Part shown: positions 6,612 through 24,608 of the stretch, in pieces
Layout: every line of letters starts with the position of its first letter
Numbering within the stretch: position 1 is the stretch's first letter
Virus record (IMG/VR): IMGVR_UViG_3300027309_000020
Span: 1 to 49,784 of that record
Strand: one strand, 5' to 3'
Source: a virus
Length of the DNA stretch: 49,784 bases
The notes under the pieces: model-generated
Databases searched by the model: none
What the model was told of the DNA's origin: nothing
What the model saw: the letters and a program-made list of their open reading frames with translations, nothing else
Made by a program: the position numbers and the translations under genes

Positions 6612-6943
6612 GGCATGGCCTTTCCGATCTCTGCCGCGACGTGAACGATGGCGCGGCGCATCTGTTCGCGCTTGTCGTCGCGGAACGTTGTGCAGCCAGG
6701 GATACCTGGGCGTTGCGACTCAACCGTGCAGCCATCGCCCTTGTGCTTGCCAGGCAGAACCGCCAACCTGAGGTCCGTTGCGAGGCGCAACGCGTCTCCG
6801 TCGTCAGTCAATGGACTCCACTGGATGATTCTGTCGTTGTGCATTCCTGCATGCGTGTAGAAAACGGCGCCAGACCATTCCCAGCCATTGAGGCGAATGC
6901 CCGCGGCTTTTGCCGCCAGCTCAAGCAATTCCTTGTCACTCAT
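6608..6943 (-). CDS. Phage protein, possible ABA-sandwich type
   Basis: A 111-aa protein starting MSDKELLELAAKAAGI, with central WSPLTDDGDALRLATDLRL and a C-terminal REQMRRAIVHVAAEIGKAM. This order (N-terminal helix, W-rich strand, 'DDGDALRLA' helix) is common among small phage proteins that I associate with the Phage ABA sandwich fold; the assignment is tentative. RBS AAGGAG. Coupled by ATGA to the genes on both sides. Confidence 0.65.
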   Translation of the reverse strand: MSDKELLELAAKAAGIRLNGWEWSGAVFYTHAGMHNDRIIQWSPLTDDGDALRLATDLRLAVLPGKHKGDGCTVESQRPGIPGCTTFRDDKREQMRRAIVHVAAEIGKAMP

Positions 6944-7134
6944 GGCGTCTCCTTCTGCTGCAGCGCCGCGCGGTAGCCGTTCGCCGTGGCGATGCCCGTG
7001 CCTTCAGTGAGAAAGGCCCAGGTGTGGTGGTACTGCTCGGCTTTGTTGATTACCGGCAAGTACCGAAGCATCTCTCTGCGCAACTGGGCGATCTCTTCCT
7101 GCAGCTCTGCGTATGTGGGCATGTCTGAGCTCAT
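6940..7134 (-). CDS. Small coiled-coil protein
   Basis: A 64-aa protein. Residues 6-30 (TYAELQEEIAQLRREMLRYL) form an amphipathic or coiled-coil helix, followed by a short aromatic region with GTGIATANGYRAAL. RBS GGGAG. Its ATG overlaps the stop of the gene upstream and its stop overlaps the gene downstream. Dimerisation is likely from the heptads; no function recognised. Confidence 0.6.
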   Translation of the reverse strand: MSSDMPTYAELQEEIAQLRREMLRYLPVINKAEQYHHTWAFLTEGTGIATANGYRAALQQKETP

Positions 7135-22163: not shown

Positions 22164-22760
22164 ATGACCTTCCGTCGCACACGCTGCGCCCACTGCCGCG
22201 CCAAGCTCACCCCTGAGCGCCCCAGCCAGATCGTCCACGCCGAATGCGCCGAGCCTTATGCCATCGCCAAGCGCGAGAAGGAAGAACGGGCACAGGCCAA
22301 GGCTGACCGCATGGCTGCCCGGGTAGCCAAGGCCGAGACGCGCCGGCTCAAGGAGGAGCAGAAGAACCTGCGCACGCTCTTGGCCGAGGCGCAGACGGCC
22401 TTCAACGAGTTCATCCGCCTGCGCGATGCCAGCCTTCCCTGCATCTGCTGCGGCATGCCGTTCGAGCCGATGAAACCCGGCGGATCGATGGATGCGGGCC
22501 ACTTCCGCTCTCGCTCCGCCGCGCCGCATCTGCGCTTCAACGCGGACAACGTTTTCGGCCAGCGAAAGAACTGCAACCGACCCGGCGGTACGACCTATTC
22601 CAAGTTCCGTGCCGGGGTGCTCGCGCGCATCGGCCAGTCGCGCCTGGAAGCCGTCGAGACCAACTACACCGACCACAAATGGACCCGGGATGAAGTCCGA
22701 GCAATTCGGGACCACTACCGAGCCAAAGCCAAGCAACTGAAGAAAGAGAGCCAGCAATGA
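22164..22760 (+). CDS. ninG: NinG/Rap recombination nuclease
   Basis: A 198-aa protein of the NinG (Rap) family, a structure-specific endonuclease that resolves branched recombination intermediates in lambda. N-terminal zinc ribbon (CAHCRAKL), a long Arg/Lys/Glu helix (about 35-85), then the HNH-like core CICCGMPFEP, DAGHFRSRSAAPHLRFN and NCNRPGG. Length matches the family. GGGAGGGGG precedes ATG 22164. It is followed by the Q-like gene with a 4-base overlap. Confidence 0.92.
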   Translation: MTFRRTRCAHCRAKLTPERPSQIVHAECAEPYAIAKREKEERAQAKADRMAARVAKAETRRLKEEQKNLRTLLAEAQTAFNEFIRLRDASLPCICCGMPFEPMKPGGSMDAGHFRSRSAAPHLRFNADNVFGQRKNCNRPGGTTYSKFRAGVLARIGQSRLEAVETNYTDHKWTRDEVRAIRDHYRAKAKQLKKESQQ

Positions 22761-23200
22761 CCGAAGAACGCTACCTCTGCGCCACTGGTGCAACCAATCT
22801 GCAGGACGTGCCCCACCGGATCGGCCAGGTTGATCTGGTGAAGGCCAACGGCATGAGCGCCAGCAACATGGCCAGCCACTTCATGCGACTGGTCAGCAAG
22901 CCCACCAAAGCCGACATGACCCGGGTCTATGCCGCGCTGCTGTACGTGGCGCACAAGCGCAAGTTTGTGGAGCCAGCCGCCGCCATCACGGCCGCCATCG
23001 ATTGGATGCTGGACCCGAGTTGCAAGGTCTGCTCTGGCACGGGCGAAATCGAGCGCAAGGGGCGCATGCACAAGTGCCCCAAGTGCAAGGGAGAGAAGCT
23101 GCGCAGGGAGCCGGCCAGCCGCGACGCGCAGTACCTGATCGACCATGTGAGCGACTGCCGGCGCGCCCTGAGCGGCCGCGTGCGTAAGCTGATGCGCTGA
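22757..23200 (+). CDS. Zinc-finger protein in late-antiterminator (Q) position
   Basis: A 147-aa protein: helical N-terminal part (residues 20-85), then a DnaJ-like finger CKVCSGTGEIERKGRMHKCP followed by KCKG (CxxC...CxxC), then a basic helix. It is the last gene of the early right operon, directly before a promoter, a long leader and terminators, which is exactly where lambdoid Q antiterminators stand; some Q families also have such a zinc finger. I infer late antitermination. ATGA overlap with ninG. Confidence 0.65.
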   Translation: MTEERYLCATGATNLQDVPHRIGQVDLVKANGMSASNMASHFMRLVSKPTKADMTRVYAALLYVAHKRKFVEPAAAITAAIDWMLDPSCKVCSGTGEIERKGRMHKCPKCKGEKLRREPASRDAQYLIDHVSDCRRALSGRVRKLMR

Positions 23201-23201
23201 T

Positions 23202-23230
23202 TTGATTTTCACGCATTTATGTGGTAACGT
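23202..23230 (+). promoter_or_regulatory. Candidate late promoter (pR'-like)
   Basis: TTGATT (23202-23207), 17-base spacer, TAACGT (23225-23230) with an extended TGG just before the -10. It begins 2 bases after the Q-like stop codon and reads into the structured region and late genes. Confidence 0.6.
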
Positions 23231-23231
23231 T

Positions 23232-23867
23232 GGCCCCGCGTTGAGTCTGAAAATTCTCAATGAGGGGCTGTGCTTAGGCCTCCCCACTGTCCAATTCGCT
23301 CCCTCCGCTTTGTTGACGTAGGCAGGACCGAGATGGACAGACGCGCCCGTAGAAATCGGGGCGTTTATCCCGCACGCCAGGGTATGGGCGCGAGGCCGTT
23401 GCGAGGACGCCGGCCCATCCCAGCGGCTGAAAAGGCTGGGGCCATCACGAAGGAAGATTGGACACGGTTCGACTCCGTGGGCAACACCGATGCGCCTTGC
23501 GCGCTAGGTCTTGGCGGCCCAGTCTTTCCTTGTGATGGTCAAGCGGCATAGGCAAATCCCGTGCCGTAGGGTTGTGACAACGCGACCGCCACAAGCGCTG
23601 AAAGTGCGCAAGCCATCCGGGTGCAAGGCTCCTGGAGCCAATACCAAGCCTCGATTGCTCACGCAGTCGGGGCTTTTCCATTTGCGCCCGAACCAGCCGG
23701 GACGCGCGCTGAGGGGAACAGGCGCGCGGGAATGTCTCGCCACAAGCTGCGGAGCTGGTCAGCGAACGGCATCCCCCCAGCGCCCCAGCAGGCGTAAGTC
23801 CGATGGGGTGAACCACGCCAGAGCCACACAGTGGCCGCCAAGCAAGCCGCCCAAGTGGCGGTTTTTT
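23232..23867 (+). ncRNA. Candidate large structured phage RNA, about 630 nt
   Basis: No convincing gene lies in these 630 bases, which run from a promoter to a terminator. Many local stems are visible: GCCCC/GGGGC enclosing TTGAG/CTCAA (23233-23268); ACGC-CCCG/CGGG-GCGT with one bulge (23341-23364); GGC and CCCAGC paired to GCTGGG and GCC (23412-23443); CACGG/CCGTG closing a tRNA-T-loop-like TTCGACT (23463-23479); GGCT/AGCC (23627-23639); CGCGCGC/GCGCGCG (23703-23728). The open frames here are Arg/Pro-rich, and one runs through the terminator. It could be a GOLLD/ROOL-like giant phage RNA, or a long antitermination leader. The class is not recognised by eye. Confidence 0.5.
23847..23867 (+). 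terminator. Intrinsic terminator ending the structured region
   Basis: CCGCC (23847-23851), loop CAAGT, GGCGG (23857-23861) and TTTTTT. It would end a promoter-proximal RNA of about 630 nt unless antitermination is active. Confidence 0.85.
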
Positions 23868-23892
23868 CGTTTCTCAGAATGAAAGAGCAGCC

Positions 23893-24477
23893 GTGAAGCA
23901 GTTTGTCTACGTGATGAAGTCCATATCGGGACTTGTGAAAATCGGCGTTTCGGCCAGGCCGGACGTCAGGCGCGCCGCCCTAGAAACCGGCAGCGGGTTT
24001 TCTGTCTCGATCGTGGAGACGTTCGGTCCATTCAACCGGGCGACCGCAATCGAGTCTGCCGCCCATGATTCCCTATCCAGCCGTCGCCAGTGTGGAGAGT
24101 GGTTTGATTGCGAAGCCAGCGCTGCAACCGATGCTGTGCGGCGAGCGATCGATGGCTTCGTTGACGCGCCTGATGGAGACCCGGCCAAGGAACAGGCCGC
24201 GATAGAGGAGTTGGCGAAGTGGGCCGCCTCAGGAATTGTGCGGCCCGTCGAGCAGTTCGCCGACGCCGCACAGGAGGTTCTTTGTCGGTATGAGAACCTG
24301 TCTGGACGGTATGTTGAGCTGACGGATCAATTTGTCGAGGCGTGCGAGTTGGTGGAGTTCTACTCCGACCACGCAAAACACGCTGTGTTCATTGCGCAGA
24401 AGTCGATGGACCAGATCAAGCGCCTTGAGGGTGAGCTTTCAGCCTTGAAGGCTGCTGGCTGCGCTGCAACCCAGTAA
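23893..24477 (+). CDS. GIY-YIG-like (T5orf172/MUG113) domain protein
   Basis: A 194-aa protein. Residues 3-75 match the T5orf172-type GIY-YIG fold: FVYVMKSISGLVKIGVSARP, then R and E positions ending in GEWFDC, expected to give a metal-dependent nuclease. The remaining 120 aa are helical with a coiled-coil end (QKSMDQIKRLEGELSALKAA). The GTG start follows GAAAGAGCAG. It is the first gene after the structured region and ends in its own terminator, so it may belong functionally with that RNA or be a selfish element. Confidence 0.75.
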   Translation: MKQFVYVMKSISGLVKIGVSARPDVRRAALETGSGFSVSIVETFGPFNRATAIESAAHDSLSSRRQCGEWFDCEASAATDAVRRAIDGFVDAPDGDPAKEQAAIEELAKWAASGIVRPVEQFADAAQEVLCRYENLSGRYVELTDQFVEACELVEFYSDHAKHAVFIAQKSMDQIKRLEGELSALKAAGCAATQ

Positions 24478-24498
24478 CCACACTGCTCTTTCGTGGTT

Positions 24499-24520
24499 GC
24501 CCGCTTCGGCGGGCTTTTTT
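24499..24520 (+). terminator. Strong intrinsic terminator
   Basis: GCCCGC, TTCG tetraloop, GCGGGC (24499-24514) and six T. It separates the GIY-YIG gene from the late genes. Confidence 0.9.
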
Positions 24521-24608
24521 ATTCCGCCACCGCTCGGGCGCATCCGCCACGCCTCATACGCCAGGGACGCCTTGCCCGCAGCGGTGGCACCTATTTACAG
24601 GAGACTCC

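Follow-up and report, generated by a model that had tools for sequence, protein, structure and literature searches.

The PR'-tR' late leader of phage lambda (6S RNA) is about 190 nt in length, and leaders of this type are usually regarded as antitermination devices. In Shiga-toxin phages, the terminated PR'-tR' leader is known to yield StxS, a processed, Hfq-binding sRNA that is used in lysogeny (PMC7873438), a precedent for a stable RNA originating from such a leader. Another phage leader RNA, put of HK022, is a two-stem RNA of about 70 nt at the early promoters, which works without need for a phage antiterminator (PMC9378689). GOLLD and ROOL are structured phage RNAs situated in non-coding stretches with tRNAs nearby. 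We analysed a window of 49,784 nt (IMG/VR virus record IMGVR_UViG_3300027309_000020, positions 1 to 49,784), in which the interval 23232-23867, as read from the window sequence, lies between a Q-position gene and the late genes. Like the lambda late leader, the locus has a Q-like gene, a putative late promoter, an untranslated leader and an intrinsic terminator before the late genes. The initial annotation of this DNA had offered a long antitermination leader comparable to 6S RNA as its alternative reading, and as to the setting this was right. We consider it rather probable that the interval forms the untranslated leader of a Q-controlled late operon and that folded RNA modules use this leader as a docking site.

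The Q-position gene directly follows NinG and encodes a zinc-ribbon protein of 147 aa. In a profile search based on nine relatives, the lambda antitermination protein Q was the top PDB sequence match (E 0.078). Similarly, in a Foldseek search using a predicted structure (mean pLDDT 68.5) as the query, lambda Q accounted for the first three PDB fold matches, with a best probability of 0.98 and an E of 0.047. A different protein, found at the Q position of the relative L018, matched the PHROG anti-termination Q-like family at 4e-5. Each of these scores is weak, but all of them indicate lambda Q and the gene occupies the genomic position of Q, so that it likely encodes a lambda-Q-like antiterminator. 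The sequence TTGATT-17-TAACGT, with TG before the -10 element, was seen by eye here and in relatives, and L015 carries TTGACA-17-TAACGT at the matching position; a generic promoter scan did not flag it. This agrees with the extended -10 promoter annotated previously, and we infer that it is used as the late promoter, with a predicted transcript start at about 23237. The features of the region are given in Table 1.

Table 1. Features of the late leader and its upstream flank, in window coordinates.
Feature	Position	Strand	Basis
NinG gene, directly before the Q-position gene	22164-22760		
Q-position gene, zinc-ribbon protein, likely lambda-Q-like late antiterminator	22757-23200	+	position after NinG; profile and fold matches
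Putative late promoter: -35 TTGATT (23202-23207), 17 nt, TG-G, -10 TAACGT (23225-23230)	23202-23230	+	sequence; counterpart in L015
5'-terminal hairpin of the transcript	23232-23269	+	fold
Module B core, promoter-proximal: outer helix UGUCCA..UGGACA and inner hairpin	23283-23348	+	covariation; placed by model R3
Module C: long hairpin GCCATCAC..GTGATGGT, variable insert with T-loop-like TTCGACT	23440-23541	+	fold, covariation
Module E: pair of small predicted hairpins, each with a GNAA loop closed by U-G	23588-23640	+	sequence common to L005, L008, L010, L035
T1: internal terminator-like hairpin (13 pairs, 23646-23675) and T-rich tail	23646-23680	+	terminator scan
Domain D: structured RNA, six helices including a pseudoknot	23684-23813	+	models R1/R2, covariation
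D helix P1	23693-23697/23754-23758		
D helix P2	23703-23709/23722-23728		
D helix P3	23740-23743/23749-23752		
D pseudoknot	23767-23769/23800-23802		
D helix P4	23775-23778/23805-23808		
D helix P5	23781-23784/23791-23794		
T2: intrinsic terminator (hairpin 23844-23864) before the first gene 3' of the leader	23844-23868	+	terminator scan

The leader of 643 nt folded at -306 kcal/mol, as compared with -268 ± 7 in shuffled sequences (z = -5.1), and the leaders of two relatives gave z values of -3.2 and -3.4, in keeping with the structured interval described initially. The strong intrinsic terminator of that description corresponds to T2, and the internal hairpin T1 had been missed. The proposed promoter-to-terminator unit holds as regards its promoter and terminator, but not as one simple transcript, the layout being promoter - RNA - T1 - RNA (D) - T2. 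The interval had also been said to contain no gene, with one open frame running through the terminator hairpin, and both statements were borne out. Although the interval contains open frames of 93 and 123 aa, and the ORF at 23511-23882 extends through T2, no ORF across 23232-23867 had a match in Pfam. In addition, the members of the domain D family range from 119 to 135 nt and their lengths fall in all three phases (13/9/9 of 31), so that no reading frame is kept in D. For these reasons we rejected a coding reading, and an unrecognised gene or pseudogene, which the open frames might suggest, appears hardly credible, as the compensatory changes track RNA pairs. The two findings named beforehand as contradicting a structured RNA, a conserved protein in the interval and uncompensated loss of its stems, were looked for, and neither occurred.

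At the gathering threshold, neither the window nor the leaders of eight relatives matched any family of Rfam 15. Lax thresholds gave nothing consistent for the window, a D homologue alone lacked even a weak match, and no tRNA or tmRNA was recognised in the interval by ARAGORN and Rfam. Membership of GOLLD, ROOL or another listed giant RNA would be in accordance with the location in a phage late region and with the tRNAs of sister leaders, but these Rfam results make it most improbable. The suggestion of a large structured phage RNA of unrecognised class can be retained insofar as the class is unlisted and covariation was found among relatives in three modules (D, C and the inner hairpin of B); a single giant RNA of the GOLLD/ROOL type it is not, the modules being separable and shuffled.

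On the 3' side of the leader, a GIY-YIG/T5orf172 gene (23893-24514) is bracketed by the terminators T2 and 24499-24514, and its slot holds other genes or none in relatives. A further strongly folded element (GCCACCGC..GCGGTGGC; z = -3.9) lies at 24524-24592, just 5' of the next gene. It is kept in L001 and other relatives, and L067 has near D a hairpin with different letters.

The Q gene was common to five viral contigs and the GIY-YIG gene that follows to one, and the 3' part of the interval was common to thirteen viral contigs, partly the same as those matching the Q gene. The Q gene was also present in one Comamonas genome, and the bacterial genomes around that genome yielded many further relatives; relatives of the leader occur in prophages of Comamonas-type bacteria. 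When the whole interval or other leaders were used as DNA queries against deposited phages and plasmids, no match was obtained. Two weak phage/plasmid matches of a Comamonas leader span just about 35 nt at its terminator hairpin, one of them falling in the late leader annotated in LESphi2. We discarded genome matches of low score (for example L026-L034 and L051-L053), which were due to chance or to terminators only.

In a sequence-based alignment, the inner hairpin of module B showed double changes in 8 of 9 pairs, with 80% of cells paired. The outer helix is misaligned between types in this alignment (44% paired) and was read sequence by sequence, as CUGUCCA/UGGACAG in the window, UCAAUCC/GGAUUGA in L015 and CUAUCCGUC/GAUGGAUAG in L006; model R3 was used solely for locating B in the window. 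When the leaders were read by eye, B was found to accompany the zinc-ribbon Q families, two other Q families having other short leaders instead, and the B type followed the Q family, while D occurred with all four. This pattern suggests that B probably belongs to the Q/promoter machinery.

Module C gave a fold z of -4.05, and its arms covary across 15 copies. The T-loop-like TTCGACT in its insert (about 23469-23475) is present as annotated at the outset, but it is not conserved in most relatives of the hairpin, and the tRNA-like reading was discarded. At other genomic sites, C-like RNAs were also found, in one case near a CI-like repressor and in another near the phage protein DUF2303. The C-type hairpins outside late leaders (L110-L115) have a conserved insert (GCGGCGGCGTGGA..GGAATCAAGCCCGGCC), and a short repeated RNA-like element (GCAGCAGGTGGAAGCCCTGC) lies beside some of them.

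In domain D, the best supported of the modules, 92.7% of the cells of the six-helix structure were paired among 28 distinct sequences, and double changes were seen in 20 of the 27 base pairs. The covariation score was 0.337, as compared with 0.113 ± 0.011 in shuffles, and none of 500 shuffles reached the observed values; as the sequences are related, this count is not a probability, and the stronger points are the double changes and the slide control, in which shifting the partner by one to three columns reduced the pairing to 28-48%. The pseudoknot was 98.8% paired, with the compensations CGG/CCG, CAG/CUG and AGG/CCU, and its cells paired and covariation score were likewise reached by 0 of 500 shuffles. 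This result is not built in, because the alignment model did not include the pseudoknot. In helix P1, CC/GG was replaced by CA/UG in 9 sequences of the wider set. A pairing of GCUGG with the second CCAGC, given by RNAalifold for the first 14 D sequences, was rejected, since the wider set favours P1. These compensatory patterns indicate that D is a new structured RNA family of its own, pseudoknotted and absent from Rfam 15. The literature on late-leader RNAs, GOLLD/ROOL-like RNAs and Delftia/Comamonas prophages (subscription papers aside) contained nothing on a modular RNA chain or D.

The first D model, built from 14 sequences, matched 19 of 400 genomes, one of which (G221) holds a CRISPR spacer and no D locus. 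With the second model, and with the spacer genome left out, D was found in 17 of the 53 genomes (species) of the genus of the Comamonas reference, and outside that genus none of about 347 genomes sampled throughout the order had it, suggesting that D is, as far as sampled, confined to phages of that genus group. An exact sequence pattern for D gave no match among genome contigs. A Q-position protein, belonging to one of four Q families, was encoded 0.1-2.3 kb upstream on the same strand in 17 of the 20 D loci, the other three (L090, L094 and L102) having no Q match, and in several D loci the terminase or DUF2280 of the window follows. In a strict scan, a terminator hairpin ended 7-11 nt before D in 16 of 31 cases and a terminator followed D in 18 of 31; several further flanking terminators with larger loops were seen by eye.

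The position of D between terminators at many loci could be explained by antitermination in cis, in which B and/or D would bind the elongating polymerase, as HK022 put does, or aid Q, resulting in the passage of T1, T2 and later terminators. Like putL (PMC9378689), B lies close to the promoter, and its correspondence with the Q family would also be consistent with such a role. However, put needs no phage antiterminator protein, yet the great majority of D loci have a Q-position gene upstream. D would moreover be made only after T1, it accompanies four Q families, it is missing from the leader of L046 in which B is present, and a pseudoknotted RNA of 130 nt is unlike the 70-nt, two-stem put. 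We consider this explanation unlikely.

Two individual loci deserve mention. L090 (G001) contains two D copies about 1.5 kb apart, scoring 86.8 and 39.5 bits, with no Q match in the stretch examined. In G221 (L024:1502-1535; contig C43, 74932-74967), 34 nt of D form a perfect CRISPR spacer, the repeat of which (GTTTCAATCCACGCGCCCGCACGGGGCGCGAC) is of the type I-C kind. The protospacer of this spacer in the window is bordered by TTC on the crRNA-sense strand, which we take to be the PAM expected for type I-C.

We found that modules come and go among the relatives. Relatives having the same Q share the promoter and B. Module C is variably present, with a differing insert and, in L005, two copies. 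The order after C is E, T1, D and then a slot that holds genes or tRNAs, and genes for tRNA-Arg, tRNA-Gly and tRNA-Met lie inside sister leaders in the same slot. The minimal leaders (L093, L105 and L107) consist of promoter, B, terminator and D. Taken together, these comparisons showed that the leader is built from exchangeable RNA modules, which are shared and shuffled among phages. In the minimal leaders no other RNA module separates D from the coding part, the fold of D is compact and pseudoknotted, and tRNAs requiring processing lie in sister leaders; D might instead serve the stability or processing of late mRNA, protecting or maturing the 5' end of the late transcript once leader and tRNAs are cut away. 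T2 and further cassettes come after D in the window and in many relatives, however, and such a role seems improbable.

Other inserts were noticed in individual leaders. The leader of L003 contains a stretch (6840-6950) that resembles a tRNA, its T-arm (CTGGGTTCGAATCCCAG) being perfect and its acceptor arms matching, and that ARAGORN does not call. In the leader of the Comamonas prophage, a probable HNH endonuclease gene (L021:5623-6111) separates module B from module C.

For the leader as a docking site of RNA modules, we propose that the promoter and terminators are used as follows. RNA polymerase starting at the late promoter would transcribe the 5' hairpin, B, C and E. In the absence of Q, T1 would stop most of this transcription, and a terminated leader RNA of about 440 nt would result in lysogeny, like lambda 6S RNA and StxS; in the presence of Q, the polymerase would pass T1, transcribe D, pass T2 and enter the late genes. 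B would probably act in cis with the promoter/Q system, and D, C and E, together with the tRNA genes of sister phages, may be exchangeable cargo, most likely stable RNAs acting in trans. Three observations lead us to favour action in trans for D: it is independent of the Q family, some leaders lack it, and tRNAs use the same slot. Its position after T1, with synthesis in quantity expected mainly in the presence of Q, would fit a cis role on late mRNA as well. We tentatively suggest, as a possibility short of an even chance, that D is the first representative of a new class of phage RNAs that are pseudoknotted and act in trans, for example in host RNA metabolism or defence, and that are carried as late-leader cargo with C and tRNAs.

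If this reading of D is true, the late leader is a slot for RNA genes, as other slots serve extra protein genes. Should these RNAs work in trans, phage RNAs would be expressed in lysogens from a promoter that is not counted as a gene, and new RNA classes could be sought in other late leaders too. The covariance model of D and its host range make the function directly testable.

The late-leader setting itself is already known from the lambda late leader and StxS, while Rfam 15 contains neither the modular RNA chain nor the D family. Pseudomonas phage LESphi2 (OQ594955.1) has a similar arrangement, with an annotated Q, a tRNA-Met and a terminator followed by holin and terminase, but its late leader is without D. 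In the LESphi2 region L120 (OQ594955.1 14921-19957), a RelE-like toxin gene with a regulator lies with the tRNA-Met between Q and holin. HK022 put resembles the present leader in its promoter-proximal structure (here B), and differs from it in that the present leader is in a late position with a Q gene and that D, with which the comparison was made, has a six-helix pseudoknotted fold. In contrast to GOLLD and ROOL, the leader described here has no Rfam match and consists of separable modules of about 60-130 nt. As compared with StxS, to which no sequence link was found, D and C are compact covarying folds. Finally, in contrast to the lambda PR'-tR' leader, the present leader is about 640 nt in length and has two terminators and covarying modules that are exchanged between phages, its compensatory mutations showing that it holds a chain of folded RNAs.
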